A stretch of DNA of 64,000 nt, taken from Eikenella sp. (GTDB lineage Bacteria; Pseudomonadota; Gammaproteobacteria; Burkholderiales; Neisseriaceae). A program made the translations under genes and the position numbers. The notes below the pieces were generated by a model, which was not told where the DNA came from, ran no database searches, and was given only the letters and a program-made list of their open reading frames with translations. This document shows positions 33,649 through 56,312 of this stretch, one piece after another. The number at the start of each line of letters is the position of its first letter. The stretch's first letter is position 1. Where the stretch lies: NCBI GenBank assembly GCA_030528345.1, contig JAUMZB010000001.1, forward strand, positions 1-64,000. The letters run 5' to 3'.

Positions 33649-33697
33649 ACCCCTATTGTGGGATATGGACGCTGGTTTATCCGTTTGAGCGGCCTCA
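33649..33697 (-). promoter_or_regulatory. Mor/C-type late promoter before gp46
   Basis: Dyad TGA-GGCCGC-TCA (33686-33697) with flanking CCCGG / ACGG, and -10 CACAAT (33655-33660) 31 bases from the dyad centre. Predicted +1 at 33648, the A of the ATG. In read-through RNA a 10-bp stem (AGCGTCCATA / TATGGACGCT) would hide the start codon. Confidence 0.7.
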
Positions 33698-33704
33698 CCG
33701 GGTT

Positions 33705-34322
33705 TTACCCGCCGCCCTCAACAATGGTTTGCGCCTGCACTTTTTGCGCGGTAACGGTTTGCGCCCGCACCATGCCGCTGGTGGTGTAGTCGCCCTCAAT
33801 CTGACGGATGTCGCCCTCAAAGCTGGCCCCGCTGCCGCCCTTAACCGCCATGCCGCCGTTGCCGTTGATTTGGCCGGCCGCTGTAATCTTGCTGCTGCAA
33901 TCTACATTGGGCGCGTCGATATTGACCCCGCCGGGGGCATTGATGTTGAGCACCTCGCAGTCGATGTCGATGATGCGGCCGCGCTTGAGCACGATTTTGG
34001 CGCCGTCTATGTTGTAGACCGCGGTCTCGCCCTCTTGCAGATTGGTGATGCGGTAAGCGCCGTTGGTGGTGGTGACAATAATGCCGTGGCTGGTTTTGCC
34101 GCCCAAAGGCACCACCACGCAATCGCTGCCGGCGGGCGGGTGGGCGGTAAAGCCGTATTGTTCGGCGTGCTCCAAATCCTGCACCGTCTCGCCGTCCAAG
34201 CCCTCCAGCTGGATGCGCTGCACCCCGCCGGCCGAATCGGTGCGGCGCACCTTGCCGCGAAAAGCCTGCCGCAACGCACCAAAAGCGCGCTTAATGCGGT
34301 TATCCACCTGTTTGGCGTCCAT
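33705..34322 (-). CDS. Mu gp45-like baseplate spike/assembly protein
   Basis: 205 residues: N-terminal OB-like FRGKVRRTDSAGGVQRIQLEG, central VVPLGGKTSHGIIV, then a C-terminal beta-helix (KIVLKRGRIIDIDCEVLNINAPGGV...). Forms the membrane-piercing spike. ATG 34322 (MDAKQVDNRIKRAF). Confidence 0.9.
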   Translation of the reverse strand: MDAKQVDNRIKRAFGALRQAFRGKVRRTDSAGGVQRIQLEGLDGETVQDLEHAEQYGFTAHPPAGSDCVVVPLGGKTSHGIIVTTTNGAYRITNLQEGETAVYNIDGAKIVLKRGRIIDIDCEVLNINAPGGVNIDAPNVDCSSKITAAGQINGNGGMAVKGGSGASFEGDIRQIEGDYTTSGMVRAQTVTAQKVQAQTIVEGGG

Positions 34323-34344
34323 CAAATACCTCGTTAATGCCCGT

Positions 34345-35460
34345 TTAAATGGTCTGTAACTGCTTCTCGGCACGCCTGCTGTTGCGGCGGCGGCCGCTGC
34401 GCCGGCGGCGCTGGCCGTTGCCCTGCTGCCCCTGCCGTTTGGGCGGGTCGGCGTCCAATACCCAAGCGCCGTCCTCTTTGAGGGTGAGCACGGTGTGGGT
34501 GGGCTGGCCGCGGCCGCCGGTAAACTTGCGCGCCATCAAAAAATAGATGGCGTCCAAACCGTCCGGCTCGCTCATCACGCGGATGCGCTGGCCGGGCTGC
34601 CACAGCACGCCCTCATCGTTGCGGTGGCCCTTAACTGTGGCCGTAATGGTGAGCGCCTCCAAGCGGCCGTCGGCCAGCCGCTTTTTGGCCTTGCGCTCGG
34701 CCTCGGCCTTGTCGTCCACATCGGCCTCCACCACAATCAGCGGCCGGTGCAGCTTAATGCCCTCGTCTTTGGCGGTGGCGCGGATATTGTGCTGGCCGCT
34801 GTGGCTCTGCCCCAACACCGTGACCTCGCTGTAACGCGGCGACAAATCGCGCTCTACCTCCAGCCGCTCAATATTGTTGCCGCGCCCGTCCAGCCGCAAA
34901 ATCAAATCCGCCACCGGCGGTGCGGTGTAATCGGGGCCGCCCACCACCAAGGTGCCGTCCGGCTCCACCCACGGCCACAGGCCGTTGGCCTCGGCATACT
35001 GCACCAGCGCATCCCATGCGCGGCTGCCCGGCTCAATCTGCACCTTGTGCGTGCGTTGGGTGCGGGCGGCGTCGATACGGATTTTGCTCAACCCCAAGGG
35101 CTTAACGATTTTGTCGATGATTTGCAGCAGGTCCATGTCCTGCGCGTCAAATATGGGGCAGGAGCAGTCCAACAGCACGGCCGCCTCGTCGCGGCCGCTG
35201 ATGGTGAGGGTTTTGCCGCCCTTTTCGGTGAGCGTGTCCACCCGGTCGATACGGCCGGAGAGCACCGTATCGCTGCCGACGCGCACTTGCACCTTATCCC
35301 CCGGCTGCACCGCATCGGGCTTGGCGTCCACCGGGCGGCCAAGGGTCACGGCAAAATCGTCGGCCGGCGTGAGCAGGTCGCTGTCGATGTCGTAATCCGT
35401 CCACTGGCTGCGGGTTTTGCCGTTGATCAGCAGGGAGACGGTGTTATCGGGCGTAGGCAT
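34345..35460 (-). CDS. Baseplate hub protein (Mu gp44)
   Basis: 371 residues, late-control-D fold: VSLLINGKTRSQWTDYDIDSDL start, ISGRDEAAVLLDCSCPIFD and VEPDGTLVVGGPDY. C-terminus is a basic, low-complexity tail (RQGQQGNGQRRRRSGRRR). Overlaps gp43 by 17 bases. Confidence 0.9.
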   Translation of the reverse strand: MPTPDNTVSLLINGKTRSQWTDYDIDSDLLTPADDFAVTLGRPVDAKPDAVQPGDKVQVRVGSDTVLSGRIDRVDTLTEKGGKTLTISGRDEAAVLLDCSCPIFDAQDMDLLQIIDKIVKPLGLSKIRIDAARTQRTHKVQIEPGSRAWDALVQYAEANGLWPWVEPDGTLVVGGPDYTAPPVADLILRLDGRGNNIERLEVERDLSPRYSEVTVLGQSHSGQHNIRATAKDEGIKLHRPLIVVEADVDDKAEAERKAKKRLADGRLEALTITATVKGHRNDEGVLWQPGQRIRVMSEPDGLDAIYFLMARKFTGGRGQPTHTVLTLKEDGAWVLDADPPKRQGQQGNGQRRRRSGRRRNSRRAEKQLQTI

Positions 35461-36814
35461 GGATCAGGCTCCCGCGCGGCACAAAATTGGGATGGCGGAT
35501 CTGCGGATTGAGGCGCACCAGCTCGGCTTGGCGGCGGTGGTCGCCGTACCACGCAAACGCCAGCAGATGCAGGCTGGTATCGGCGTGCGCCACTTTTTGC
35601 ACCAAGGGCGGGCGCAGATTGATGACGGCCAGCGCCTGCTTTTGCAGGGTGTGGGCGGTACGGCGCACGCTTTGCGCCAGCTCGGCGGTGTGTTCCAGAT
35701 ACGGGCGTGCGGGCAGCAGGCCCGCCGCCTCAAAGCGCTGATACACGCCCTCGGGGGGCTGCGCCGGCTCTTGGTAGAGGTCGAGCAGGTGGCCGGCCAT
35801 CTCAGCGGCCTTGTCCGGGTTGGCCAGTATCATGCCGCAGATGCGCTGGGCGGTGAGGCTGCGCATCAATGCCTCGCGGCTGTCGGCCAACACCTGCGAC
35901 ACCTCGCGCGGGGTCAATACCGGCTGCTCCAGCTCCAAGGCCAACAGGTCGGCCGCCTCGGCAGCCAAGTTGGCGGCGCCGACGGTGGCAATCAGCCCGC
36001 ACAGCACCGCCACATCTTCCACCCGCGCGCCTTGGTGGTCTATCGGGGCGCGGTTGCCGGCATCAATCAGGCTGCTGTGCACTTGGCGCGGGATGTCGGC
36101 CGTGCGGCGGGTGGCGCCCACCAAATCGCGCCAGCCGTCCAGCGTTTTGCCGCCGCGCCGATGCAGGCCGGCCAGCCCGCCAAACACCGACAGCAGCTCC
36201 GTCATCAACACGCGCGGGCTGTTGATTAAGTCCAGGCTACCTGAAAACACGCCGTTAATCTGGCCGTACAACACGCCCACCGCCGTCAGCGCGGCGGCGT
36301 GAAAGGCATTCCAACGGCGCTGCTGGCCGCGGATGCCGGCCAGCGCCTTGTTAAACACCTCAAAGCCCTGCCAAGCGGCCAGATCGGCAAAATGGTCGAT
36401 CTCGTCGGCCATCGCCAAAGGCAGCTCCTGCGCAAAAAACGGCGCCGCCGCCACGCTCTGCCGGAAACTGATGCGGATGGTGGCGTAATCCGGGCTGTCC
36501 TCATGATGTCCCACTTCAAAATCGGCCACCACGCAATCGGGCACGCTGCCGTAAATGGGGTGCACCAGCTCGCCGGCGCCGCCCTCCCGCAACACCTGAA
36601 TCAGCTTTTGCAGGCGGCCCTCGTAGTCGTCGCCGTAGAGCACGGCGGTGATGTCCATCGTCAGCGCCTCGCAGCCGGTATCCTCAATGTCGGAGCCGTC
36701 CACAAAGGGGTAGCTGTGCTCGGCCAGCGCGTGCACGCCGCGCAGGGCGTCCTCGGTGGCCTCAAACGGCACACCCTTGTAGCTGGCATCCAGTAGGGTA
36801 TCTTGCCAAGACAT
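35444..36814 (-). CDS. DNA circularisation / tail protein (Mu gp43, N)
   Basis: 456 residues beginning SWQDTLLDASYKGVPFEATEDALRG, the DNA_circ_N signature; long helical middle. Acts between tape measure and hub. A full DUS (36234-36245) lies in the coding sequence. Two bases from the tape measure start. Confidence 0.9.
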   Translation of the reverse strand: MSWQDTLLDASYKGVPFEATEDALRGVHALAEHSYPFVDGSDIEDTGCEALTMDITAVLYGDDYEGRLQKLIQVLREGGAGELVHPIYGSVPDCVVADFEVGHHEDSPDYATIRISFRQSVAAAPFFAQELPLAMADEIDHFADLAAWQGFEVFNKALAGIRGQQRRWNAFHAAALTAVGVLYGQINGVFSGSLDLINSPRVLMTELLSVFGGLAGLHRRGGKTLDGWRDLVGATRRTADIPRQVHSSLIDAGNRAPIDHQGARVEDVAVLCGLIATVGAANLAAEAADLLALELEQPVLTPREVSQVLADSREALMRSLTAQRICGMILANPDKAAEMAGHLLDLYQEPAQPPEGVYQRFEAAGLLPARPYLEHTAELAQSVRRTAHTLQKQALAVINLRPPLVQKVAHADTSLHLLAFAWYGDHRRQAELVRLNPQIRHPNFVPRGSLIHAYAR

Positions 36815-36815
36815 A

Positions 36816-39062
36816 TCAATTCCTCCGGCCGTCGCGGGCGGCGGCTTGGTTGAGATAGGCGGCGATGTTGCCGTTTTGCACCGTTACCGTAATCGGGATG
36901 GGCGTGCCGGCCGCGGTGAGCATACGCGCGGCGGCGGCGCCCACCTTTTCGGCCGCCTCGTTGAGCTGTTGGGCGGCGGTCTGGTTGTCGGCCACCGCCT
37001 GCATATATTGGTCGCCGGCCTGCTGGTAGGTATCTACCGCCAAGCCGAATTGCGCCATGATTTGCGCCATCTCGGGGTCGCCCGCGGCGGGGTCTTTGCC
37101 CTGGCCGCGCATATGATCCACGTAGGCGCGGGCGTGGCTAGGGCTAAGCCCTGCGCGGCGGCGCAGCGCTTGGCCCTCAACGTCGCCGCGCAGATAATCG
37201 GAGATAGGATTCAGCCAGGCGGTGTGCTTGCGTATGGCCTCGGCACGCTCGCCGTATTTGTCGCGCTCGCCTGCCCATTGGGTAACGTCATACATGGCGC
37301 TCAAAGGCAGCGTGGCCCAAGCCAACGCCCCCAACGTGCCCCCGCGCGGCATCATCCGCGACCAGCGGCTGCCTTGGGCGGCCGTCTGTGCCGTGGCCGC
37401 CGCTTGGGTGGCTGTGGCCGCAGCACGCGCGGACGCTGATGCAGCCGTTGCGCCACCGGTTATGCCGCGCAGCATGGCGCCGGTGCCCCACATGGCTGCC
37501 CCCGCCCCCGCCACATGGCCGGCACCAGTGGCCGCCTGTGCCGCCTCCGGATTTTGGCGCGCCCAGTCGGAGAGCGCCTGCGCCCCGTCGGCCAGCTTGT
37601 CGGTGGCCGCGTTAAAGGCGCCGTACTCGGCATCGCGCAGCGTGACCTTAGCTTGCTCCGCCTTAAAACCGGAGCCCAAAGCAACAAGCTCATACGCGCC
37701 ATTCACGGCGCCGGCAGCGTTTGCCTGCCCCTCCCTCAACCGCTCATCTGCTTGCGGGTTATTGATAAGCGGCAATAGAGCCATTAAGGCTTGGCGATCG
37801 CTAATCAGTTGGCCGACGGCGGTGCCGTCCACCAGCGCTTTTTGGCTTTCCAGCAGCGCCATTTTTGCCTCGTCTCCTTGGGCGGCATTGAGCTTTTCCA
37901 CCAATTCCCGGCTGCGCGGGTCTTTATTAATTATTTCCCGCACAATATCCACCAGCGCATCCAGCGAGTTCATTCCGGCGGCCTGTCGCTTATTCATGCT
38001 GGCTGTAAAATCAAAGCCTTTTTGCCCGTTAATGGTGATGCCTCGGGCTTTGGTGATGGTCTCGGGGCTGTATAACTTGGACAACAAGTTGACCAGATTA
38101 TTGCCCGCCTCATCGGCGCTGCCTGCCGTCATAAACGCTAATTGGTTGGCATTAAGCAGGGCTGAAATATTATCCAGCGTCAAGGCCGATCCGCCATTTT
38201 TCATGGCGGCGAATTGTTGCGGCATCCAACGCACCATATTTTTAAACTCAAAACCGCCGTCCACACCGGATTGCACGGCTCGGTCAAGCAGAGCCGGTAT
38301 ATCACTCTCTGCCAAACCGTTTTGGATTGCCTTGCTGACCAAATCTGCCACCTCGGATGCGTCGGCATCGGCGGCGGCAGCGGTACGCATCACCTGCGGC
38401 AATAAGCGCAATACAGACTCATCACTCATCGCACCGCTGGCAGTCATTGTATTCATGGCGGCCAGCGCTTCTTCGTGGGTTCGCCCGCCGGCGTGGGCGG
38501 CGGTGCTGACCGATTGGTGGATTTTTGCCATGCCCGCCTGTTTTTCGGCCAAACTTTTGCCGGCATACATGGTATTGGTGGCGTGGCGCAGCGCGGTGTC
38601 GTAATCCATGGTGCGGCGTACCGGCTGCGCCATCACATAAGCGCCGGCCGTCAGGGCTGCGCCGGCCGTAACCGCGCCGCCCACCAAACGGCGGCCGCCA
38701 CTTACCGCCCGCTGCCAGCGGTTGCTTTGTGCCACGCCTTGCCCCAGCTCGTTATTGAGCTGGCGGATTTTGTTGCGCGTGGCCTCGGCCGCCCGCGCCA
38801 GCTCGCGTTGCGAGAGGGTGCCGGAGCGTGCCAGATAGTCGTAGCTGCGCTGGGTGGCCGTAATCTCGCGGCGGATCATTTGCTCTGATCGGATACCGAT
38901 ATGCTGGTAGGCCATCTGCGAATAACGACGCTGCCGTTCGGTTTGTACGGCCGCCCGCGCCTGCTCCTGCGCCGTGCGCCGGGTCTCCCCGGCCAAACGG
39001 CGCAGCCCTTGACTGGCTTGATCTCTAAAACGGGCAATCAGCTCGACAATGTTTTTGCTCAT
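36816..39062 (-). CDS. Tail tape measure protein (Mu gp42)
   Basis: 748 residues. N-terminal coiled coil (~1-120), two Ala/Gly hydrophobic stretches near 135-155 and 535-575, TP901-type central region (HQSVSTAAHAGGRTHEEALAAMNTM). Sets tail length. ATG 39062 overlaps the chaperone frame stop. Confidence 0.9.
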   Translation of the reverse strand: MSKNIVELIARFRDQASQGLRRLAGETRRTAQEQARAAVQTERQRRYSQMAYQHIGIRSEQMIRREITATQRSYDYLARSGTLSQRELARAAEATRNKIRQLNNELGQGVAQSNRWQRAVSGGRRLVGGAVTAGAALTAGAYVMAQPVRRTMDYDTALRHATNTMYAGKSLAEKQAGMAKIHQSVSTAAHAGGRTHEEALAAMNTMTASGAMSDESVLRLLPQVMRTAAAADADASEVADLVSKAIQNGLAESDIPALLDRAVQSGVDGGFEFKNMVRWMPQQFAAMKNGGSALTLDNISALLNANQLAFMTAGSADEAGNNLVNLLSKLYSPETITKARGITINGQKGFDFTASMNKRQAAGMNSLDALVDIVREIINKDPRSRELVEKLNAAQGDEAKMALLESQKALVDGTAVGQLISDRQALMALLPLINNPQADERLREGQANAAGAVNGAYELVALGSGFKAEQAKVTLRDAEYGAFNAATDKLADGAQALSDWARQNPEAAQAATGAGHVAGAGAAMWGTGAMLRGITGGATAASASARAAATATQAAATAQTAAQGSRWSRMMPRGGTLGALAWATLPLSAMYDVTQWAGERDKYGERAEAIRKHTAWLNPISDYLRGDVEGQALRRRAGLSPSHARAYVDHMRGQGKDPAAGDPEMAQIMAQFGLAVDTYQQAGDQYMQAVADNQTAAQQLNEAAEKVGAAAARMLTAAGTPIPITVTVQNGNIAAYLNQAAARDGRRN

Positions 39063-39660
39063 TTTTTGCGCCTTTTGCTCACATAAGTGGTGGTATGAGA
39101 CCCGGCCGGCACGGATGCCGGCGCGGGCGGGGCGGGGATAAGGGGCGGTGTCGGAAACAGTGGCCGGCGCGCGCGTTGGATAATATCGGCCTGCCGCACA
39201 AAGGCAGACAGCTCGGGCAGGCTCATGGCCTGCACCCGGCTCTCGGGCAGCCCGAATTGCCCGAGCATCAAGACGGCGTGGCAGTAGTAGTCGGGCGGTG
39301 CCGCTTTTTTGCCAGCAGCTCTTTGGCCAGATACAGCACATCCATATCGTCGGCAATCAGATGGTCGGCCAGATAAGCGCCGGTGATCGCTTCGGGCGGC
39401 ACACCGCCCAAGCGGACAAACGAGCGCGCCTGCCGCTCCATCGCCAGCTCAAAGCCGGAGAGGCCGGCGGCAATCGCCATATCGTCGCGCACCGTTAAGA
39501 GGCGCAGCTCAAAATCGTGGTGGTATTGCCCCTCATACTCAACGCCGTATTTCAGGCTACCTGAAACGGTGCGGCCGTCGGCGGAAACGGCCAAGCCGTA
39601 CTCGGCGGCGGCCTGCTCCAATTGGTTATCGGGGGCGGGGGCGGTGTTTTTTGCGGACAT
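39059..39660 (-). CDS. Tail assembly chaperone, -1 frameshift product
   Basis: The frame starting at 39660 meets the heptamer A-AAA-AAG at 39310-39304. A -1 shift there continues as AAPPDYYCHAVLMLGQFGLPESR... to a stop at 39059, giving about 200 residues. The downstream frame has no good start of its own, and the joined protein matches the Mu-like gp41 layout, so a lambda G/GT-type programmed frameshift is strongly suggested. Confidence 0.75.
39268..39660 (-). CDS. Tail assembly chaperone, unshifted product (gp41-like)
   Basis: 130 residues, MSAKNTAPAPDNQLEQAAAEYG...; ends KKRHRPTTTATPS in the zero frame just after the slippery site. Carries a full DUS (39553-39564) in its coding part. SD (AAAGG) lies in the 3' arm of the leader hairpin. 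Confidence 0.85.
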   Translation of the reverse strand: MSAKNTAPAPDNQLEQAAAEYGLAVSADGRTVSGSLKYGVEYEGQYHHDFELRLLTVRDDMAIAAGLSGFELAMERQARSFVRLGGVPPEAITGAYLADHLIADDMDVLYLAKELLAKKRHRPTTTATPS

Positions 39661-39664
39661 AAAT

Positions 39665-39751
39665 AAAGCCTTTAAACGCAGGTTAAACCAAACAATAAGA
39701 GAGGTTTAATTGTCGTTTAAAGGCTTTCGGGCAGCCGCTTGAGCGGTTTCA
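39665..39751 (-). promoter_or_regulatory. Mor/C-type late promoter with overlapping hairpin before gp41
   Basis: Dyad TGA-AACCGC-TCA at 39740-39751, -10 GACAAT (39709-39714), predicted +1 at 39702. A 14-bp stem (39665-39678 with 39714-39727) followed by T-rich sequence would terminate or sequester read-through RNA; the promoter starts downstream of its 5' arm. Confidence 0.7.
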
Positions 39752-39758
39752 GCGGGTA

Positions 39759-39938
39759 TCAGCCATCCAGCGATTCAAACCGCTCAATCTGGCGCGAGAG
39801 CTGCTCGGCAATCAGCAGCAGATTGCAGGCGGCCAAATCGGGTCGGTGCTGATAGGCGGTGAGGTTTTCCGCCACATAAAGCAGCGCGTCGCGGGTGGTG
39901 CAGAACTCTACGGCCAAATCCTGTTTGGGGGTATACAT
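39759..39938 (-). CDS. 59-aa phage protein
   Basis: MYTPKQDLAVEFCTTRDALLYVAENL...LAACNLLLIAEQLSRQIERFESLDG, helical, of the kind found in phage/plasmid accessory blocks (DUF3077-like, uncertain). Three bases downstream of rha; part of the inserted block between tube and chaperone genes. Confidence 0.65.
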   Translation of the reverse strand: MYTPKQDLAVEFCTTRDALLYVAENLTAYQHRPDLAACNLLLIAEQLSRQIERFESLDG

Positions 39939-39941
39939 GGC

Positions 39942-40544
39942 TTAATCCTCCAAAGGCAAAGCTTGTTGGGCGCGCTTGGCCAGCATTTGGGCGCGGCCGC
40001 GTTTGCCGCGCGCGCTCAATACCGGATCGGGCGTATAGGCCACCAATTGCAGCCCGGCCAGCTTTTTCAGGCGGTGCGCCACGCTGCCGGGCGCCAAATC
40101 CAAGAGCTTGCCGATTTCGCTGAGGGTGAGCCCTTTTTCGTAGTAGGCGATCAGGCGCGCCTCCAGCGGCGCGGCTTGGATAAAGGCGGCTTTGTATTTT
40201 TGCAGCAGTGCCGTATCCACCGCCTGTACACCGTGCAACTCCGCCTCCATCGCATTAAAAGCGGCGATGTACTTTTCCTTCCACACCGCAGCGGCATGGC
40301 CGGTAAAGCCCATGCACAGGAAAACGAAACCGTCGCGGGTGATTTCGTACATCGGCATTTGTTTGTTTTGGGAGGTGGTGTAAGAGGATAATCCAAAATT
40401 GGATTCTCTAAACTTCTGTGAACATTCGATATTTTCAATATCACGTAAAACGTGGGCGTGCTTTTTATTGAAGTGGTTCGAAATATCCAAAGAGGTGGTA
40501 ATCAAACGATCGCCGGAATGGCGTACCAGAGGTTGGGATGTCAT
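39942..40544 (-). CDS. Rha family phage regulatory protein
   Basis: 200 residues. N-terminal Rha domain (LVRHSGDRLITTSLDISNHFNKKHAHVLRDIENI, ...YEITRDGFVFLCMGFTG) and a C-terminal HTH (LTLSEIGKLLDLAPGSVAHRLKKL). Rha proteins modulate phage growth under host IHF control in other phages. Unusual inside a tail gene block. Confidence 0.88.
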   Translation of the reverse strand: MTSQPLVRHSGDRLITTSLDISNHFNKKHAHVLRDIENIECSQKFRESNFGLSSYTTSQNKQMPMYEITRDGFVFLCMGFTGHAAAVWKEKYIAAFNAMEAELHGVQAVDTALLQKYKAAFIQAAPLEARLIAYYEKGLTLSEIGKLLDLAPGSVAHRLKKLAGLQLVAYTPDPVLSARGKRGRAQMLAKRAQQALPLED

Positions 40545-40559
40545 TTTGTGATTTCCTTT

Positions 40560-40800: not shown

Positions 40801-40850
40801 AAAAGCCCCTGCAAGTTTTTCTTGCAAGGGCGGGTCGCACAACGTTTTCG

Positions 40851-45350: not shown

Positions 45351-46253
45351 TTACAACAGCCAGGGCGATACCAGCACCTTGGCTTTGCCCTTGTGCACAT
45401 TGCTCTTGCCGGCATCGGTGCGCTCGGCCTCCAAAATGGCCTTAGCAGCGTCCTCCAAAGTAGGCGGCACCAAAAGCACGGTCGGGCGGATGGCCAGCGG
45501 GCGGCCGCCGTCGGCTTTTTGCGTCAGCATGCCGGTGTAGACCTTGGCAAAATTGTCCGGAGTCAGCTCTTCGCTGGATTTGGCCGCCATTTGCCAAAAG
45601 CCCACGCCCACGTTGTAGCGCCCGTCCACGCCGTAGCGGTACTCGTTTCGCATAAACACGTTTTCGTCGGTGTCGGCGGTCATGGCGGTAAACTTGGCCT
45701 GTTTACGCTCTTGGAAAATAAACGGTTTCAGGGCGCGGCTGGTATCCAGCAAATACCAAGCGGTGCCGCTGCCGGTGTAGAGATTGCTGACGATGGTTTT
45801 GTTACCGGTGCCGTCCACTTTTTCCGCTACCGGATGGTCGGTATCAAAAAAGTTTTGGCCGTCGTAGCACAAGGTGGCGTGGGCGTTTTTAATCAGGCCA
45901 AATACCAGCTCGTCGGGATGCACTGCGGTGGCACGGCCCATCTCGGTAAACAAGGGCGCGTAGATGCCGAGGTTGTCGTCCTCGATGTCGTTGCGGTTGA
46001 CCTTAATGGAGCTCTCGTAGTGCTTGTTGGCGATGGCGTAGGCATGTGCCTGCATGTCGTTAAACACACGGTCACCCACCCACTCGCGAAAGCCCGGCCA
46101 TTGGCCCAGCCAGCCGTAAGTATTGCTGGCGGTGGAAGACGGCACCACGGTGGCCAGATCGCGAAACTGGCTCTCGGCCATTTGCAGGCCGTCCTGGAAG
46201 TTTTTGGCAAAGCCCGTTTTCAGGGCTTGCAGGGACTGGGGAGTGATAATCAT
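45351..46253 (-). CDS. Major capsid protein (Mu gp34, T)
   Basis: 300 residues: MIITPQSLQALKTGFAKNFQDGLQMAESQFRDLATVVPSST-type N-terminus of the Mu head protein family and conserved DGQNFFDTDHPV. ATG overlaps the protease/scaffold stop. Confidence 0.95.
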   Translation of the reverse strand: MIITPQSLQALKTGFAKNFQDGLQMAESQFRDLATVVPSSTASNTYGWLGQWPGFREWVGDRVFNDMQAHAYAIANKHYESSIKVNRNDIEDDNLGIYAPLFTEMGRATAVHPDELVFGLIKNAHATLCYDGQNFFDTDHPVAEKVDGTGNKTIVSNLYTGSGTAWYLLDTSRALKPFIFQERKQAKFTAMTADTDENVFMRNEYRYGVDGRYNVGVGFWQMAAKSSEELTPDNFAKVYTGMLTQKADGGRPLAIRPTVLLVPPTLEDAAKAILEAERTDAGKSNVHKGKAKVLVSPWLL

Positions 46254-46852
46254 GCGGTTGCCTCCTTGGCTTGGGCGTAGTCATCGGGGGAGATATTGAG
46301 CGCGGCCGCCACGGCTGCCTCTTCCGCGCTCAGGCCGGCTTTGCCGGCAGCGGGGGCAATGCCGCCGCTTTGCATGGCGCTCAAGGCGGCCAGCGGCTGG
46401 GCGGTGGCCAAAAAGTCGGCCAGCGCCTGCGGGTGGGTTTTGCCGAGGTTTTCCGCCCACGCTTTTTGCGCGGGCAGCAAGCGGCCGTCGGAGAGGGCGG
46501 CGGTAATCAGCGCCGTGGTCTTGTCGGCTTGCTGTTGCGCCAGTTGCTGGCTCAAGGCCGCCACCTGTTGCTGCAAGCCTTTGAGCGCGTCCATCGGCAC
46601 CATCTCTTGCGTGGCGGCGGCGGTTTGGGCAGCGCCCGGTTCTGCGGGCGGCGCGGGATCGGCTTGGCCCTCGCCTTTGTCGCCGTCTTTTTTGTCGGCG
46701 GCCTTATCAGCCGCCTTATCGGCCAACAGCTCGGCCAAGGGCTTGCCGCCCGATGCGGTTTTGAGCTGCTCCAATGCCGCCAGCTGCTCCGCCTCGGTGG
46801 CGGTTTCCGGCAGATTAAGCAGCGCGAGCATCTGCTTTAACGCTTCATTCAT
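46250..46852 (-). CDS. Scaffold protein from internal start (Mu Z-like)
   Basis: In-frame ATG at 46852 with GAAGGA just upstream yields a 200-residue scaffold (MNEALKQMLALLNLPETATEAEQ...) as in Mu, where Z is read from within I. Confidence 0.7.
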   Translation of the reverse strand: MNEALKQMLALLNLPETATEAEQLAALEQLKTASGGKPLAELLADKAADKAADKKDGDKGEGQADPAPPAEPGAAQTAAATQEMVPMDALKGLQQQVAALSQQLAQQQADKTTALITAALSDGRLLPAQKAWAENLGKTHPQALADFLATAQPLAALSAMQSGGIAPAAGKAGLSAEEAAVAAALNISPDDYAQAKEATA

Positions 46853-47380
46853 GGTTTTTTCCTTCGGGTTGGTTGCGGGGGTCACAAACAGCTTGGAGGC
46901 GGCGGCCAGCGCCACCGGGTCTAAATTGTCCAGCGCGGGAGTATTGGTCAGGGCCGGCGGCAGCAAGGCCGTCACCTCGCCGGTGGGCAAATATTGAAAT
47001 ACCGGCGAGATATAACGGTATTCGCCTTCGGCAATCCGCTTTTTGGCGGCGGCCGTCCACTCCACCTCCGCAAACAGGCCTTTGCCCTCCACCCACTCCA
47101 AGCGGCTGATCCAGCCGGAAGCGGGGTTGGGTTGGCCGTTTTGAGCCGTGTTAAGGGTTTGGTGCTCGTAGTCCACCATCAGGCGCACCGGGCGGTTGTT
47201 GAGTGCAGCCATCAGCGGCGCGGCCAGCTCGGCCGTCATGCGCCAAAACGGCGCATCAAACGGGCGGCCGTCGGAGGCGCGAAACTCGCCGGCAGGCAGC
47301 AGTTGGATACGGTTGGCTGCGCCGTTAAGCTCCACGGCACAGGCGGCAACCAGCGGAGGATGGGGGGTCTGTCTGCTCAT
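46250..47380 (-). CDS. Prohead protease / scaffold precursor (Mu gp32, I)
   Basis: 376 residues. N-terminal protease half (RPVRLMVDYEHQTLN with catalytic His, GLFAEVEWTAAAKKRI, YRYISPVFQY) and a C-terminal Gln/Ala-rich coiled-coil scaffold. The ATG coincides with the +1 predicted from its late promoter, so a leaderless message is expected. Confidence 0.92.
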   Translation of the reverse strand: MSRQTPHPPLVAACAVELNGAANRIQLLPAGEFRASDGRPFDAPFWRMTAELAAPLMAALNNRPVRLMVDYEHQTLNTAQNGQPNPASGWISRLEWVEGKGLFAEVEWTAAAKKRIAEGEYRYISPVFQYLPTGEVTALLPPALTNTPALDNLDPVALAAASKLFVTPATNPKEKTMNEALKQMLALLNLPETATEAEQLAALEQLKTASGGKPLAELLADKAADKAADKKDGDKGEGQADPAPPAEPGAAQTAAATQEMVPMDALKGLQQQVAALSQQLAQQQADKTTALITAALSDGRLLPAQKAWAENLGKTHPQALADFLATAQPLAALSAMQSGGIAPAAGKAGLSAEEAAVAAALNISPDDYAQAKEATA

Positions 47381-47429
47381 GGCCGCATTGTCGCGGCGGC
47401 GGCCGGATGCAGCCGGTTGAGCGGCCTCA
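47381..47429 (-). promoter_or_regulatory. Mor/C-type late promoter before protease/scaffold gene
   Basis: Dyad TGA-GGCCGC-TCA (47418-47429), -10 GACAAT (47387-47392), predicted +1 at 47380, the A of the ATG. A weaker 6-bp stem GGCCGC/GCGGCC abuts the start codon. Positional equivalent of Mu PI. Confidence 0.7.
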
Positions 47430-47547
47430 CCCGGCAGCGTAATCGGCAGGAGGATAGGCAGACGCGGGCGGGAGTGCTTTAAAGAGCCTTTAAAGAGGCG
47501 TTTTTAGAGGGGTTGGCGGAGCGTGCAATACCCAAGCCTATCCGGCA

Positions 47548-48275: not shown

Positions 48276-49643
48276 CCAGATTAAATCGTATTGGTGCAAA
48301 TTATAAATTTGACGCCCTACAACAATAGAGCCGGTGTTGACCATATTGGTGGTTACCCGCTCTTTTTTATTGCTCACCGGATGACGGGTTTTTAACTCGT
48401 AATCCAATGTCACCACCAATTTTCCGTTTTGCCCCGGTAAATCGTAAATAAACAGCAGGCCGTCTTGCTGGCCGGGATTGTTGGACTTTGCCAAACGTAT
48501 TTCATCGGGCGCGGCCAAATGCTCGGGCAGCCGCTCCCAAAAGTCTATCGGTAGGGGTTGCTGTTTTTTATCCCGCCAAGCGTGCCACAGCCGCTCGTCA
48601 TTGATGGACACCACCGCCGTCTGCGGCATCAACTGCCGTGCCGCCAGCGCATCCAACACCGGCAAGGGCAAGACGCCCACGTGCATAAACTGGCCACTGG
48701 CATAGCCGTCGGCCTGTGCCTTGGCCACCATCTGTGTCATCTGCGCCACCAGCGAGCGCATGGTTTCCGGCCGCTTGAGCGTTTCGCCCACCGCCATGCT
48801 GGCCACCCTCGGAGGCAAATCCACCGCCCGCTGCAATTGCAACTGCCCCAGCTGCGCCAGATGGCGGCGGCCCACATTGCCGTCAAAGCCTCGGTCGGCG
48901 GTAAAGCGGCTGCCGTCCGGCAGGCGCAGCGCCTTGGCCGGCACGCTGTCGCCCCGCTTGTTGATGATGATGTGGGTGTCCTCAATCTGCCCGCGGCTGT
49001 CATTGGCTGCAAGGCCGCGCCTGTCCAGATCGCGTTGGCTGTAGGCGGTTACCGTGCAGCGGCAGTTGTAGCCGTTTGGCGGATAAAACGCATCCCAAAA
49101 CGCATCGTCGATGTGATAGACCAAGCCGTGCAGGGCACGGTGGCGCGGGCGGGTGCGGCTGTCCATCACGGCGGTGTATTGCAGATAAGGCATATGGGCT
49201 TTGTTATCCTGCAGCTCCTGCCAGCGCCCGGCCATAAAGGCGCTCTGCATATTGGTGCGATACACGGTTTCCAAGCGGGCGCGGGTCAGCCCCGTGCCCG
49301 CCACCTCGCCGCTGGCGGTGTCCACCAAGTCGCCCGCCTGGTCGAGCTGCAGCCCCTTGGCGCCAAACCGGGCGGCCACATCGTCGCGCCACGCGGCAAA
49401 CGGCTTGCCTTGGCGGGCGGCATCGGCCATGGCCTGATGCAGCTCGCCCACCAAATCCTGCCGATAGAGGCCGGCCACCGTCTGCGCTTTGGCGGCCGCC
49501 TCCTGCGCCCGTTGCGGCCAATCGGCCGGCACCGTGTAGCCCAGCGTCTCAAAATAACGCACCGCTCGCTCGGGCGTGAGCGTAAACGCATAGCCCAAAT
49601 CCGCCTTATTGCCCACCCATCTGCCCCCATAGGTCGGCCACAA
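48267..49643 (-). CDS. Head morphogenesis protein (Mu gp30, F) with extra C-terminal domain
   Basis: 458 residues. MuF domain: VYRTNMQSAFMAGRWQELQ, MDSRTRPRHRALHGLV, AFYPPNGYNCRCTVTAYS. The last ~130 residues (GLLFIYDLPGQNGKLVVTLDY...) form an added beta-rich domain, possibly a BECR-type nuclease as in other polyvalent MuF proteins. ATG 49643 overlaps the portal end by 38 bases; a GTG at 49616 is the alternative start. Confidence 0.85.
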   Translation of the reverse strand: MWPTYGGRWVGNKADLGYAFTLTPERAVRYFETLGYTVPADWPQRAQEAAAKAQTVAGLYRQDLVGELHQAMADAARQGKPFAAWRDDVAARFGAKGLQLDQAGDLVDTASGEVAGTGLTRARLETVYRTNMQSAFMAGRWQELQDNKAHMPYLQYTAVMDSRTRPRHRALHGLVYHIDDAFWDAFYPPNGYNCRCTVTAYSQRDLDRRGLAANDSRGQIEDTHIIINKRGDSVPAKALRLPDGSRFTADRGFDGNVGRRHLAQLGQLQLQRAVDLPPRVASMAVGETLKRPETMRSLVAQMTQMVAKAQADGYASGQFMHVGVLPLPVLDALAARQLMPQTAVVSINDERLWHAWRDKKQQPLPIDFWERLPEHLAAPDEIRLAKSNNPGQQDGLLFIYDLPGQNGKLVVTLDYELKTRHPVSNKKERVTTNMVNTGSIVVGRQIYNLHQYDLIWKK

Positions 49644-51201
49644 ACAGCACGCGGCCCAAAGCCTCTTGCAGCTGGGCGGTATCCAACAGCGGCCATGCCG
49701 CCTCCAAGGCGCGGGCGGCCTCCTCGTAGCTCTGCCCCTGCGCCACCGCCTGCCCCAGCGATTTAATCAGCGGCTCCAGCTGGGCGGGCAAATCCGCCGC
49801 CGCCAAATAACGGTCTGCGCCCGTATCCAAAGCGGCCTGATCCGGGTAGATGATCTCGCCGTGGCGGCTTAAGGCTACCTGACGATAATGGGCGGAGGCC
49901 GCCGCAGTATTGCCCTTGGCGCGCACCTCGGGCGGCAAGACCATATCCGGACGCGGCAGGCTCAACACCGGCTCGCCCTCGGCCGCCTGCGGTATCGCCA
50001 GCTTGTCGTGCGCCCACTCCAAAGGGATTTGCATGCCCAGGCCCACCAACTCCGGCAGGCTCTCGGCATACATCGCCATGTCCTCCGGCTCGCGCGAGTC
50101 AAACTCAAAATAAGGGATACGGGCAGGGTCAAGCGCACCCTTATTGATTTGCAGCAGCGGCCAAATCAGCTGGCGCGTGATGGTGGCGGCCAGCTGCTTG
50201 GCGTCCGACACCAAGAGATCGTGACGCACCTCGTTGTGCACATTGCCCAGCGCGTGGGTGCTGGTTTTGCCGTCCGCTTGGCTGGTGAGCGTGCCGCCCA
50301 AAATCACTTTGGATTGCGTCCGCTCACACCATTCTGTCATTGCCATAAAGGTGTCGCCGCTGCCGTTGGCCGCATTGAGCATCTCCAGCAGCATGGTCTC
50401 CGGGATAATGCCGGCGGCGTTGTGGCCTATGCCGGCCAAGGCGCGCAGCAGGGTGCGCTTGTCCTCGTCGCTGGCGCCGGCCGGGTATTTGCCCAGCCGC
50501 ACCGGCAGGCCGTAAATCTCTAAAAACTCCGCCAAATCGCGCACCGAGTAATTTTTAAACAGGTAGGGCCAAGCCAGCGTGCGCATCAGCCCGCCGCGCG
50601 CCAAAAAGCCGCTGCGCGCCTGATGGCGGTGCACCATCCAGCCCAACGGCCATAAATCCTGCGGCGGCTGGCCGTCCACGCCCAAAAGGCGCACGGTGTC
50701 GTCTTTGAGCGTAAACCAGCCCTGCGGGCGGTGGACAAACTGTTCCGGCAGCCACAGGCCGCCGGTCTGCCGCCAGCCAATCTCCACCGCGGCAAAGCCG
50801 TGGCCGAGGGCGTCGAGCAGGTCAAACATGAGCGCCTCAAAATCGTCCAGCCCGGCCAGCCACTCGCCCACTTCTTCGGTCAGCGCCTTTTCTGCGGCCG
50901 AGGCGTTTTTGGGCGCGACCACGCGCCAGTCCAAACCCATCAGCGCCCGCTTACGTTTGCTCATCTCGGCAAAGATATGGCCGTCTTTTTCTTCCATGTC
51001 CGCAAACAGGGCGGACTGGGCGGCGATGTCGCCCTCTTCGGCCGCCTGCAAAATCTGATGCAGTTTAAGCGGCGTCAGCCCCTTGCTGGGGTGCTCGGCA
51101 AAGGTGCCGTGGCGCGCCATCAGCGCCGCAGACTGGCTGCCGCTTTTGGGTGAGTGTTGTTTGCCGCCTTTTGCGGCATTTTTGTCATTTTTTGAGGCCA
51201 T
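49606..51201 (-). CDS. Portal protein (Mu gp29, DUF935)
   Basis: 531 residues: RHGTFAEHPSKGLTPLKLHQILQAAEEGD, MSKRKRALMGLDWRVVAP, WPYLFKNYSVRDLAEFLEIYGLPVRLGKYP. Portal vertex for DNA packaging. No ribosome site precedes the ATG; a terminator T run does instead. Confidence 0.93.
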   Translation of the reverse strand: MASKNDKNAAKGGKQHSPKSGSQSAALMARHGTFAEHPSKGLTPLKLHQILQAAEEGDIAAQSALFADMEEKDGHIFAEMSKRKRALMGLDWRVVAPKNASAAEKALTEEVGEWLAGLDDFEALMFDLLDALGHGFAAVEIGWRQTGGLWLPEQFVHRPQGWFTLKDDTVRLLGVDGQPPQDLWPLGWMVHRHQARSGFLARGGLMRTLAWPYLFKNYSVRDLAEFLEIYGLPVRLGKYPAGASDEDKRTLLRALAGIGHNAAGIIPETMLLEMLNAANGSGDTFMAMTEWCERTQSKVILGGTLTSQADGKTSTHALGNVHNEVRHDLLVSDAKQLAATITRQLIWPLLQINKGALDPARIPYFEFDSREPEDMAMYAESLPELVGLGMQIPLEWAHDKLAIPQAAEGEPVLSLPRPDMVLPPEVRAKGNTAAASAHYRQVALSRHGEIIYPDQAALDTGADRYLAAADLPAQLEPLIKSLGQAVAQGQSYEEAARALEAAWPLLDTAQLQEALGRVLFVADLWGQMGGQ

Positions 51202-51280
51202 AAAAAATCAGGGCAAGATGCGGTTAATCTTGCCCTGATTATCTGTTGCGCCGTTTCCGCCAGCCGTTTGAACCGCTTCA
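51202..51280 (-). promoter_or_regulatory. Mor/C-type late promoter overlapping a terminator before portal gene
   Basis: Dyad TGA-AGCGGT-TCA (51269-51280), -10 GATAAT (51238-51243), predicted +1 at 51231. A 13-bp perfect stem (51207-51219 with 51227-51239) plus six T residues ends right at the ATG. Transcripts from upstream should terminate; those from this promoter lack most of the 5' arm. Confidence 0.75.
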
Positions 51281-51478
51281 GCGGGGGCGCTGCGGCAGCC
51301 GCCAGCACATCCGCCGCTCGTCAAACAGCAGCTCGCCATCGGCACGCATCCGGTTCAGCTCCTGCCACACCGCCAACCAAGACGGCCGCGGCCGCAACCG
51401 CCCCAAGCCGTCCTGCCAAATCACCGAGGCGGTACACCAGTCGCGGTACACCAAAAAATGCCGTATCCGCTCGCGCAT
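51278..51478 (-). CDS. 66-aa phage protein between terminase and portal genes
   Basis: MRERIRHFLVYRDWCTASVIWQDGLGRLRPRPSW..., basic and Trp/Arg-rich. TGATG overlap with the terminase stop shows coupling. Function unknown. Its stop overlaps the next late-promoter dyad. Confidence 0.7.
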   Translation of the reverse strand: MRERIRHFLVYRDWCTASVIWQDGLGRLRPRPSWLAVWQELNRMRADGELLFDERRMCWRLPQRPR

Positions 51479-53112: not shown

Positions 53113-53120
53113 AGGAAAAT

Positions 53121-53669
53121 ATGAACGGAAATGTTATTTGGCTATCTCGTGATATCCAGAAAATGGTACTTCTCGCTCTAGCACAGCGCTATCCCAGAGT
53201 TATTACGGCAAGCGTAATGTTTGACCTTTTCCCCCCACTTGAAGATCATGTCAAAATGGATGATTTGGTAAATAATATTATGTATTTAGAAGAACATGGT
53301 CTTTTAAGGAGAGTAGACTTCCACGGCGAGCCGGTTCCCTTTTACAACTTGATGAATGCTCATAATGATTTTTATGTAGCCACAGTAAAGGGTATTGATT
53401 TCATACAAAAAGACGGTGGGCTTTCCGCTATTTTTGGTGTACAAACTATTAAATTTCACGCAGATACAATCAGCGACTTAAAATCCTTACTGATGTTCAA
53501 ACTAGAACAAGCAAATATTTCTGAAGATGATAAAAATAAGATTACTGCCAAATTAAGTGAATACGGAGACGAAGCAGCCAAGCATCTATTAACTAAACTG
53601 TTAGATGCTGGGATAGAAAAGCTCCCCGCATTACTTGGCACACTTGGCATTGCAGGCTTGTTCAATTAA
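53121..53669 (+). CDS. Plus-strand accessory gene (winged-helix-like hypothetical protein)
   Basis: 182 residues on the strand opposite to all other phage genes, with AT-richer composition. N-terminal ~80 residues look like a winged helix (KMVLLALAQRYPRVITASVMF...YLEEHGLLRRVDF), followed by a helical linker and a hydrophobic C-terminus LPALLGTLGIAGLF. AGGAAAATATG start. Ends tail-to-tail with the DUF1804 gene (4-base overlap). A lysogenically expressed moron is likely; function unknown. Confidence 0.75.
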   Translation: MNGNVIWLSRDIQKMVLLALAQRYPRVITASVMFDLFPPLEDHVKMDDLVNNIMYLEEHGLLRRVDFHGEPVPFYNLMNAHNDFYVATVKGIDFIQKDGGLSAIFGVQTIKFHADTISDLKSLLMFKLEQANISEDDKNKITAKLSEYGDEAAKHLLTKLLDAGIEKLPALLGTLGIAGLFN

Positions 53670-54166
53670 CCAAACCGCTTTTCGACCTCCGCCCCAAACG
53701 GCTCCAGCACGTCCACCAGTGCCGCCAAATGTTTGGGGTGTTTTTGCGCCACGTGCTCGGCCAGCATCTCCAACACCTGCAGCGCCGTCGCCAGCTGACT
53801 GGTTTCCGGCAAAATCTTGGCGTTGGCGGCCACGGTCTTGTTAAACGCATCGGCCAAGCTGGATAAGAGCTTGACCTTTTCCACCGGCGAGAGCTCGGCA
53901 TCCACCTGCAGCAGCTCCATCGTGTGGTTGTACTGCTGCAAAAAGCCCGCCATCATCGCCCGGCCGAGGTCCTCAATCTTGCCGCCGGCCAGCGTGTAGG
54001 CGGCGCGCAGCTTGTCCCAATCGTCGCCTTTGGCCTTGGCCTGCTCGCGCCAGCGCCGCGCCGTGGCTTGAGTGATGCCGCACATCAGCGCAGCAGTCTC
54101 CAAGCTCTGGTTGCCGCTCACATAGAGCTGGCGCAGCTTGTCGCGGGTCTCTTGCGGGTGCGCCAT
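53666..54166 (-). CDS. DUF1804 family, terminase small subunit-like
   Basis: 166 residues: HPQETRDKLRQLYVSGNQSLETAALMCGITQATARRWREQAK (HTH) and DDWDKLRAAYTLAGGKIEDLGRAMM, LPETSQLATALQVLE. Position before the large terminase suits DNA recognition for packaging. Confidence 0.88.
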   Translation of the reverse strand: MAHPQETRDKLRQLYVSGNQSLETAALMCGITQATARRWREQAKAKGDDWDKLRAAYTLAGGKIEDLGRAMMAGFLQQYNHTMELLQVDAELSPVEKVKLLSSLADAFNKTVAANAKILPETSQLATALQVLEMLAEHVAQKHPKHLAALVDVLEPFGAEVEKRFG

Positions 54167-54168
54167 GA

Positions 54169-54399
54169 TTACAATCCAAACTTGGCCTTAATCATCAGGA
54201 TGCCGGTGGTCACAATGCCGCCCATCACGCCGCCGCTGGCCGCGCCGGCCACCATTGCCGTGCGGCGGCAGTCGGCGTGGATTTGCTGCAGCTGGCCGTC
54301 CATGCGCTCCTGATTTTTAATGGTTTGGTCTTGCTTTTCACGGATTTCCAACAGCAGGGCCATTACTGGGTCTTGCCGGGGCATATCGTGTTTTTGCAT
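54169..54399 (-). CDS. Small phage membrane protein
   Basis: 76 residues: amphipathic N-terminal helix (LLLEIREKQDQTIKNQERMD) and one Gly/Ala-rich span near the C-terminus (AMVAGAASGGVMGGIVTTGILMI). May be a holin-like or tail-associated protein; uncertain. Confidence 0.7.
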   Translation of the reverse strand: MQKHDMPRQDPVMALLLEIREKQDQTIKNQERMDGQLQQIHADCRRTAMVAGAASGGVMGGIVTTGILMIKAKFGL

Positions 54400-54400
54400 C

Positions 54401-54670
54401 TTATTTGTCCGCCTTTCTGTCTAACTTTTCGTTGACCTTGGCCAGGTCGGTTTTGATCTCTTTCAATAACGACAGCACCTCGCCTTTGTGGTCGCGGGCA
54501 TCGCCCTTGGTTTGGTAGTCTTTTTCCACCGCGTGCAGGCGCTCGCGCAAGGCGCGGCGCTCGTTTTCGGCCTCCTTAAAGCGGTCGGCCAAGGCGCGGA
54601 TGTAATACCACAGCAGCGCCATTAAAAAGCTCATTGCGCCGCCGAATACGGTCTCAATTGTCAGGGGCAT
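54401..54670 (-). CDS. Mu gp25-like protein (DUF2730)
   Basis: 89 residues: N-terminal membrane span (VFGGAMSFLMALLWYYI) followed by a long charged coiled coil. Conserved in Mu-like phages between lysis and terminase genes. Confidence 0.8.
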   Translation of the reverse strand: MPLTIETVFGGAMSFLMALLWYYIRALADRFKEAENERRALRERLHAVEKDYQTKGDARDHKGEVLSLLKEIKTDLAKVNEKLDRKADK

Positions 54671-54876
54671 TACGGCCAGCCCTCCTCAAAATAGGTTTGA
54701 CACAATACGCAGCGCGTACAGCCCGGCACCGCTTCCTGCCGCTCGGGCGGGATGGGCGCGCCGCAATCCTCACAATGGCTGCGGCGGTAGTGGCCGCCCA
54801 GCTGCCCGCGCGTATGCTGCAGGGCGGCTTCGCGGTGGCCGGCCTCCACCTCGGACGCTAAATCCATCTGGTCCAT
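54670..54876 (-). CDS. TraR/DksA-type zinc finger protein
   Basis: 68 residues with CEDCGAPIPPERQEAVPGCTRCVLC, the four-Cys finger. TraR-like proteins bind RNA polymerase through the secondary channel and mimic DksA-ppGpp; here probably tunes host transcription late in infection. One-base overlaps with both neighbours. Confidence 0.88.
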   Translation of the reverse strand: MDQMDLASEVEAGHREAALQHTRGQLGGHYRRSHCEDCGAPIPPERQEAVPGCTRCVLCQTYFEEGWP

Positions 54877-55160
54877 CAGCGCCCCTCCTGCCCCTGGTCA
54901 TACCAGCGCTGCCAGCCGTCGAGCTGCGCCTCCAGCTTGCCTACATACGCGCCAAACTCGGCGGCATGCGAGAGCAGGTCGGCCGGGCTGCCCGATGCCG
55001 GCGGCAGCGGCCGCAGGGGCGACACCAACAGCGCAGCTGGCGCCGGCGGCATCACCGGCATCTCCACCGTGTGCACCGGCGCATCAGTAGCCGAGGGCGC
55101 GCCGGTAGAGGCGCAGGCTGTCAGGGCCGAGGCCGCCAACACAAGCACCAGCTTTTGCAT
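54876..55160 (-). CDS. Rz1-like outer-membrane spanin lipoprotein
   Basis: 94 residues: signal peptide MQKLVLVLAASALTAC with lipobox LTAC, then Pro/Ala-rich sequence. Its start lies inside the Rz gene in another frame, the classical nested Rz/Rz1 arrangement. Disrupts the outer membrane in the last lysis step. Confidence 0.8.
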   Translation of the reverse strand: MQKLVLVLAASALTACASTGAPSATDAPVHTVEMPVMPPAPAALLVSPLRPLPPASGSPADLLSHAAEFGAYVGKLEAQLDGWQRWYDQGQEGR

Positions 55161-55491
55161 CCGATTGCACAACATTGGGTATCTCCTGTTTCAGGTAGCC
55201 CGCTTGACCATCCAAACGGGCATAGGTATGCGCCAGCTTTTGGCTTTGCACTTGGGCAAAGTCATGCCAGCGCTGTTTTTCGGCGGTGGCGGCCGCCAAT
55301 TGGGCACGGTAGGCCAGCTCCGCAACCAGCTGCTTTTGCCGCCACTCCGCCTTAACCGCCGCCATCTCGGCTTCGGCCGCCGTGTCGCGCTTCAGGTAGC
55401 CTGCACGGTAGGCCAGCGCGGCCACCAGCAACACCACCCACAGCGGCCACAAACGGCGCAGCCAAAACCAAACACTACTCCACGGCATCAC
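55084..55491 (-). CDS. Rz-like inner-membrane spanin
   Basis: 135 residues: N-terminal span (LWPLWVVLLVAALAYRAGYL) and a periplasmic coiled coil (EAEMAAVKAEWRQKQLVAELAYRAQLAAATAEK). Two DUS copies (55391-55402 full, ~55190 variant) are both translated as GYLK. Confidence 0.8.
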   Translation of the reverse strand: MMPWSSVWFWLRRLWPLWVVLLVAALAYRAGYLKRDTAAEAEMAAVKAEWRQKQLVAELAYRAQLAAATAEKQRWHDFAQVQSQKLAHTYARLDGQAGYLKQEIPNVVQSDAKAGACVGGLGPDSLRLYRRALGY

Positions 55492-55726
55492 GCTCTCCCT
55501 GCTTGATGGCCGCTACCTGCGGCACTGCGGCAATGCCGCGCTTAATCAGGGCGTAACCGCCCACCATCGCGCCGTATGCCCACCATGCCCACTCCGGCGT
55601 GTCGGGCATCACGGCAAATTTGTAGGTCATCACGCCGGCCGCCACATTGGCCCACAGCTTGGTGTGGCTGATTTGGCCGGTAGCCGGATTGCTGATGAGT
55701 CCCGCCAGCCAATTAACCATGCTCAC
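55475..55726 (-). CDS. Holin-like phage membrane protein
   Basis: 83 residues with two weak spans (KLWANVAAGVMTYKFAVM and WAWWAYGAMVGGYALIKRG). GTG start overlaps the endolysin stop (GTGA). Position between endolysin and spanins suits a holin. Confidence 0.7.
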   Translation of the reverse strand: MSMVNWLAGLISNPATGQISHTKLWANVAAGVMTYKFAVMPDTPEWAWWAYGAMVGGYALIKRGIAAVPQVAAIKQGERDAVE

Positions 55727-56232
55727 ACCTCATTGCGGCTGTAACCGCCCTGATGCGCCAACACCGGCAAGTTGTAGCGGCTTTTGTGCGGCATGCCGCT
55801 ACCGTTGGGGTACACCGGCCACACAAACGCCACCGCCCGCGACCGCTCAAATTTGGCAATGCTGACCTTATTGCCCTGGTTGCCGCCCAAAATCAGCAGA
55901 TTGCCTGCACGGTCACGGCCAACCACAAAACCCACATGCCCGCCGCCTTTGCGGCCGAATACCGCAATACAGCCGTAGGCCGGCGCCTTGAGGCGCACGC
56001 CGGCATCTACCCACGCCAAGGCGCGATACCAGTGCTTGGGCAAGGCGCGCCCGGCATGGCGGCAACAATGCGCCACAAACGTGCCGCACCAAGGGGTCTC
56101 GTCATCCCGCCACCACGCCTTGAGCGTATTGAGCCAGTGGGTGATGGTCGGATTGTGGTTTTTGCCCGGCACCTCGGCCAAGCCCTCGTATCGTCTCGCC
56201 TCGATAATCCAAGGCAAATCTGTAAAAACCAT
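55723..56232 (-). CDS. Endolysin, CHAP/NlpC-like cysteine amidase (TIGR02594 type)
   Basis: 169 residues. ARRYEGLAEVPGKNHNPTITHW, catalytic Cys in DETPWCGTFVAHCC and His in GGGHVGFVVG. No signal peptide, so export by holin. First gene of the late region, directly after the Mor-type activator. Confidence 0.88.
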   Translation of the reverse strand: MVFTDLPWIIEARRYEGLAEVPGKNHNPTITHWLNTLKAWWRDDETPWCGTFVAHCCRHAGRALPKHWYRALAWVDAGVRLKAPAYGCIAVFGRKGGGHVGFVVGRDRAGNLLILGGNQGNKVSIAKFERSRAVAFVWPVYPNGSGMPHKSRYNLPVLAHQGGYSRNEV

Positions 56233-56307
56233 AAAAAAAATCCCAAGTCGTCAAACTTGGGATGATTATTGGGTAAGCCGCCGCCGACAGCCGTTTGAGC
56301 CGCCTCA
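56233..56307 (-). promoter_or_regulatory. Mor/C-type late promoter overlapping a terminator before endolysin
   Basis: Dyad TGA-GGCGGC-TCA (56296-56307), -10 AATAAT (56265-56270), predicted +1 at 56258. A hairpin ATCCCAAG/CTTGGGAT (56240-56263) with eight T residues ends at the ATG; +1 falls in its loop. Equivalent of Mu Plys. Confidence 0.75.
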
Positions 56308-56312
56308 CCCGG

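Follow-up and report, generated by a model that had tools for sequence, protein, structure and literature searches.

Late promoters of a Mu-like Eikenella prophage: a Mor-type dyad and start sites set in inverted repeats that may silence read-through RNA

How might a Mu-like prophage time the expression of its lysis and capsid genes? The question is raised by a 64,000-nucleotide (nt) stretch of Eikenella sp. DNA (assembly GCA_030528345.1, contig JAUMZB010000001.1, positions 1 to 64,000 of the forward strand), called the window below. It holds a prophage whose late genes are co-directional with the early genes, and read-through of RNA into the late genes is therefore expected. A preliminary description of the window had noticed a dyad at the heads of five late units, at a fixed distance from a -10 box of the form NANAAT. 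We report here that these five sites are probably late promoters dependent on a Mor-type activator, with start sites set in inverted repeats in such a way that only RNA begun at the promoter itself would escape folding, and that the protease gene I and the baseplate gene gp46 are predicted to be transcribed as leaderless mRNAs, with AUG as first codon at +1.

All five dyads are present as exact matches to CCSNNTGAN6TCANNCGG on the minus strand, which is the right-to-left direction of the late genes, and at 5/5 sites the first base of the -10 hexamer lies 31.5 base pairs (bp) from the dyad centre. The endolysin promoter, Plys, has its dyad at 56291..56312 and the -10 box AATAAT at 56265..56270, with a predicted transcription start (+1) at 56258, ahead of the endolysin gene, which has a CHAP domain (55723..56232). 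The portal promoter (dyad 51264..51285, GATAAT at 51238..51243, predicted +1 at 51231) precedes the Mu-like portal gene, recognized by its Portal_Mu domain (49606..51201). At the Mu-like head maturation protease, gene I (46250..47380; Pfam Mu-like_Pro, 2.3e-92; start aligned with relatives), the dyad at 47413..47434 and GACAAT at 47387..47392 of the promoter PI place the predicted +1 at 47380, the A of the ATG. The gp41-like tail assembly chaperone gene (39268..39660; PHROG 508, 4.1e-25) is preceded by a dyad at 39735..39756 and GACAAT at 39709..39714, with a predicted +1 at 39702. For gp46 (33295..33648; Pfam GP46, PF07409, 6.5e-17) the dyad lies at 33681..33702 and CACAAT at 33655..33660, and the predicted +1, 33648, is again the A of the ATG. 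Each site has a dyad centred at -43.5 from the predicted +1 and a -10 box, and no -35 box. The full pattern of dyad and spaced hexamer has five exact matches. With three mismatches allowed it yields 10 matches, where 0.88 would be expected from shuffles, which reached at most 5; three of the five extra matches are near-palindromic reverse readings of the known sites. Searched for by itself across the 2,126,683-base genome, the dyad was found at these five late-unit heads of one Mu-like prophage and nowhere else; an equal frequency away from gene heads, which the preliminary description took as the mark of a spurious motif, is not seen. A reversed control pattern has no match across the same genome.

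The candidate activator is encoded at 56313..56783 on the minus strand, where a Mor-family gene had been proposed. Its product (156 amino acids from the ATG; the open frame reaches 56879 with a TTG) matches Pfam PF08765 at 1.9e-11, above the cut-off, and PHROG 836 at 4.4e-36, and the gene is the only PF08765 match in the genome. It was said to precede the endolysin promoter, and it does adjoin it; a minor correction is that the gene runs right to left and that its end abuts the Plys dyad. The Mor protein had no meaningful match among solved structures in a sequence search. In the promoter Pm of Mu, the site bound by Mor is a 16-bp dyad with its centre at -43.5 (PMC4390567). The half-sites differ, TGA-N6-TCA here versus AT-rich half-sites for Mu Mor and C, and they vary among phages. 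One Mor gene, five sites only and a -43.5 geometry that extends across relatives support a single-activator Mor regulon with a recognition sequence unlike that of Mu, which was the original proposal and is the best reading of the locus. In most related phages the Mor gene lies upstream. Two Mor-family genes are found in the relatives L120, L127, L132 and L162, and the site flanks come in two flavours, CCAC- and GTGC/CTGC-TGAACC. The two flavours fit a Mor-to-C cascade and suggest how Mor and C sites might be told apart.

Related phages were fetched with the Mor protein and then with the protease, and 59 non-redundant phages were aligned on the gene I start codon. A PF10123 search over the order was useful here, though it offered no comparable start in distant families whose proteins are fused. 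In the gene I alignment the centre of the dyad falls at -43.5 and the -10 box occupies -12..-7, the only strong columns being TGAA-CCCC-TTCA around -43.5, an A at -11, a T at -7 and a G/C-rich stretch at -6..-1. The preliminary description had suggested searching related prophages for dyad and spacing, and the geometry is indeed kept. The close relatives L048-L054 and L057 have three or four of the same promoters in the available stretch at the same spacing, and distant relatives keep TGA-N6-TCA, with -10 boxes such as TATTCT, TATGCT and CACACT at the same offset. In the Haemophilus phage SuMu all three plus-strand GGAAN4TTCC sites, which head an amidase, the protease and gp46, share a 37-base offset. 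In KS10 (L170) an upstream palindrome, GAACCATTT..AAATGGTTC, was considered as the dyad and dropped; the inner TGAAATGGTTCA has the right spacing (31.5, hand count). Mu-like phages with still other dyads (TTTTGCCC-N2-GTTCAAAA; GGTCCTGGTTCCCAAT; GTCCCAGGGAC), at 1972, 9871 and 15662 in L091, at 391 and 9854 in L150, and in L146, L163 and L109, have a similar spacing, and in most of them repeats surround the start site.

The -43.5 promoter rule and the position of the start codon agree, and +1 is therefore placed at the A of the gene I ATG. An.A...T hexamer lies within 0-2 nt of the expected place at 85% of the 59 gene I starts, versus 11% of 547 other gene starts of the same phages, and a Shine-Dalgarno (SD) match of at least 4 nt precedes 10% of the gene I starts versus 59% of these control starts. 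Promoter register and SD statistics together predict a leaderless mRNA, with the start codon at +1 and no SD. The gene I N-termini align with one another and with Mu I. Likewise, gp46 starts at the predicted +1 without SD in the window and in SuMu, despite the different dyad of the latter (GGAA-N4-TTCC). Leaderless mRNAs with a -10 box about 6 nt before the AUG and no SD are known, for example from Deinococcus-Thermus (PMC12340547). Gene I is predicted to share this arrangement, but it is a late gene of phages, would be driven by an activator, and keeps the leaderless form in many of them. Within gene I, an internal scaffold start corresponding to gene Z of Mu lies at codon 177 in the window (46250..46852, minus strand) behind an SD-like AAGGA, as read from the sequence, and in most sequences checked an internal start at codon 171-202 is preceded by AGGAG, AAGGA, GAGGA or the like. 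Some annotated protease starts appear to be wrong. In DMS3 (L046; gene I at 19037-20134) an in-frame start stands 126 nt ahead of the annotated 19163, on the predicted +1/+2; in B3 (L168) the likely start is 19887, annotated as CTG 19857, and in KS10 18177, annotated as TTG 18120, both likely starts falling on the predicted +1 or +2. None of these three has an SD. DMS3 also has a second Mor-type site, TGAACCCCTTCC, with the -10 box CACGAT and the hairpin CCGCC/GGCGG (10212-10608), and an unannotated 115-amino-acid reading frame (PHROG 3648) begins at 10261, its exact +1, as another predicted leaderless gene.

In the window each of the five start regions is associated with an inverted repeat, described here from RNAfold predictions and from reading of the minus strand. 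A terminator-like hairpin covers +1 of Plys (56240..56263), with a 5' arm at about -5..+5, a 3' arm at +10..+19 and then a T-run and the ATG at 56232. At the portal promoter a 13-bp terminator hairpin (51206..51240; 5' arm -9..+4, 3' arm +14..+26) is likewise followed by a T-run and the ATG at 51201; in folding, it shrinks to a weak 5-bp stem in the promoter's own RNA. The gp41 promoter has a terminator-like double stem (39665..39727) that encloses -10 and +1, its outer arms being AAAGCCTTTAAACG/CGTTTAAAGGCTTT and its inner ones TTAAACC/GGTTTAA. At gp46 a 14-bp hairpin (33640..33673) has the -10 box in its loop and the AUG in its 3' arm, and the unpaired probability of that AUG is 0.00 in read-through RNA and 0.65 in own RNA. 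The gene I repeat GGCCGC...GCGGCC (47381..47404) carries the -10 box in its loop and its 3' arm, at -6..-1, abuts the ATG; it is weaker than in relatives. A hidden SD or AUG in read-through RNA is clearly predicted for gp46 and for many relatives, but less so for gene I of the window; the endolysin, portal and gp41 structures look like terminators. These three genes have no SD, and the U-run of the terminator stands directly before their AUG (56232, 51201 and 39660), where it may offer ribosomes a U-rich entry site. Among the tail genes, a Rha-like or antirepressor-type regulator gene (39942-40544, minus strand; PHROG 995, 8.6e-49) immediately precedes the gp41 promoter.

Across the relatives almost all such promoters are enclosed by an inverted repeat, one arm of which falls at +1 or slightly before it. 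At gene I, where the repeat encloses the -10 box and abuts the ATG, 17 of the 59 phages have perfect 6/6 stems; when arms were exchanged between phages 3000 times, such stems averaged 2.6 and never exceeded 9. The remaining Mor promoters, 27 non-redundant sites, have a stem in which the -7..+4 segment pairs with the segment just upstream of the gene, and the 5' arm mostly begins at -6/-7. The mean stem score is 20.6 for own partners versus 11.7 for swapped ones (5000 permutations, maximum 14.9). Within phages, then, the two arms covary (p<0.001 in the swap tests). In a sliding test from -60 to +40, the signal appears only with the 5' arm centred at -6..+1, has its peak at -3..+1 and is flat elsewhere. 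A T-run follows the 3' arm at the portal and endolysin promoters of the window and in L048, L049, L053, L120 and L127, and the 3' arm covers SD or ATG in L011, L090, L092, L105, L134, L160 and L165. The AT-rich distant phage L056 shows the same design at two sites, and a third, with the -10 box inside the 5' arm, is readable by eye. The SuMu amidase promoter has a stem scoring 32.5 over +1. A model-free repeat search in DMS3 returned coding-sequence noise only. In Rhodobacter RcapMu (L171) hairpins GTCCGTC/GACGGAC and CGCGCGT/ACGCGCG stand directly before protease and endolysin (22439 and 14017), there without an assigned promoter register.

Mu itself has stems over the start site scoring 21 at Pm, 21.5 at Plys and 18 at PI, and random Mu positions reach 17 in 6.6%. 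The stems at Pm and Plys extend as far as the first gene's start codon (TCATCATGGG; TGATGGCGG), and the PI stem stops just short of the SD. The Pmom stem scores only 16.5; the mom product of Mu is separately controlled by Com. The promoters described here resemble the middle and late promoters of Mu (Pm activated by Mor; Plys, PI, PP and Pmom by C) in having a Mor-family activator, a dyad at -43.5, a recognisable -10 box and no -35 box (PMC4390567, PMC4287176), and the start-site hairpin is shared with Pm, Plys and PI. They differ in that the prophage has one activator and not two, in the dyad core (TGA-N6-TCA versus Mu's own sites), in heading more late units (portal, gp41, gp46) and in the predicted leaderless form of gene I, which in Mu has a leader.

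We propose that a dimer of the Mor-family activator recognises the TGA-N6-TCA dyad at -43.5, which would stand in for a -35 box, and that host RNA polymerase would start 6-7 nt after the NANNNT -10 box. A complete hairpin would form only in RNA that enters from the co-directional upstream genes. At the endolysin, portal and gp41 genes of the window it would terminate this RNA just before the gene; at gp46, and at the endolysin gene and gene I of most relatives, it would bury the start codon or the ribosome site. With a predicted start site within the 5' arm or directly behind it, RNA begun at +1 would lack that arm, escape the hairpin and be expressed. Lysis and capsid genes would thereby be kept off until the right moment. 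In addition, gene I would be leaderless while the internal scaffold start has an SD-like sequence, which may favour scaffold over protease. The same control logic is known for the T4 genes e (lysozyme), soc, 49 and I-TevI, where early read-through RNA hides the ribosome site and a late promoter within the 5' arm yields RNA that is free of the structure and is translated (PMC3014915). Unlike in T4, nearly every promoter of an activator regulon would be involved, in terminator, AUG-hiding and leaderless forms. In the fold-back protection of the IS10 transposase, an inverted repeat silences transcripts from outside and spares those from the inside promoter. The repeats at Mor promoters, in contrast, are linked to an activator regulon and are not a transposon end.

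Several observations weigh against this interpretation. By folding, the gene I AUG of the window is not buried (0.65 versus 0.68 unpaired), and about two fifths of the gene I starts have 4 or fewer of the 6 pairs. Some starts fall at +2 and not at +1. The list of other promoters depends on a matrix trained on gene I sites, of which the hairpins were no part, and the -10 boxes of Mu were placed by expected spacing and not from mapped ends.

If the Mor promoters are real, the hairpins could still be ordinary terminators of the preceding genes together with chance GC-rich repeats in the short gaps beside promoters. Several structures do have T-runs (endolysin, portal and gp41 of the window), compact phage genomes crowd terminators and promoters together, and some relatives (L008-L015) have a plain terminator between dyad and -10 box, as Mu has one at Pm. 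We nevertheless consider this unlikely, given the 5' arm at -7..+4 in most independent phages with a stem signal confined to that register. Many stems without T-run pair over SD or AUG (L011, L092, L105, L134, L165, L160), the gene I repeats enclose the -10 box and abut the AUG, and the relatives with a spacer terminator have a second stem over +1. Still less probable is a role of the repeat as DNA and not as an RNA device, either as a palindrome that eases melting around the -10 box or as the site of a second regulator. The -10 box within the loop of the gene I repeat would suit it, and Mu C is reported to affect isomerisation at the promoters Plys, PI and PP and to unwind DNA at Pmom (PMC4461284). 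However, a common DNA role does not fit, as the -10 box lies outside the repeat or in one arm at promoters of the endolysin and portal type, the arm sequences differ wholly between phages, and G-U pairs occur (e.g. GGCTGC/GTGGCC in L053). A derivation of the dyads from the Neisseriaceae DNA uptake sequence, as variants of it or as terminators made of inverted copies, has next to no probability and is excluded for this genome: the pattern does pick up inverted GCCGTCTGAA uptake sequences in Neisseria-type genomes (a Neisseria-like genus) of the family, but the dominant uptake word of window and host is GGCTACCTGAA (the Eikenella dialect). This word is absent from the dyad, which is therefore of another kind; the five dyads are confined to the prophage, keep a fixed spacing to -10 and recur in phages of unrelated hosts.

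In the open-access text searched, no description of leaderless or read-through-silenced late genes of Mu-like phages was found. On balance we favour the view that start-site hairpins which silence read-through provide Mu-like phages, Mu included, with a general and hitherto unreported layer of late timing, and that leaderless versus SD-led initiation within the protease gene sets the ratio of protease to scaffold. If this is true, Mu, among the most studied of phages, would have an unnoticed RNA layer that silences lysis and capsid genes until the activator fires, and proteobacterial phages would have a well-conserved leaderless late mRNA. The misannotation of the capsid protease start in DMS3 and B3 would be explained. 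Activator dyad and start-site hairpin together would then be a motif for locating late promoters in unannotated Mu-like prophages.

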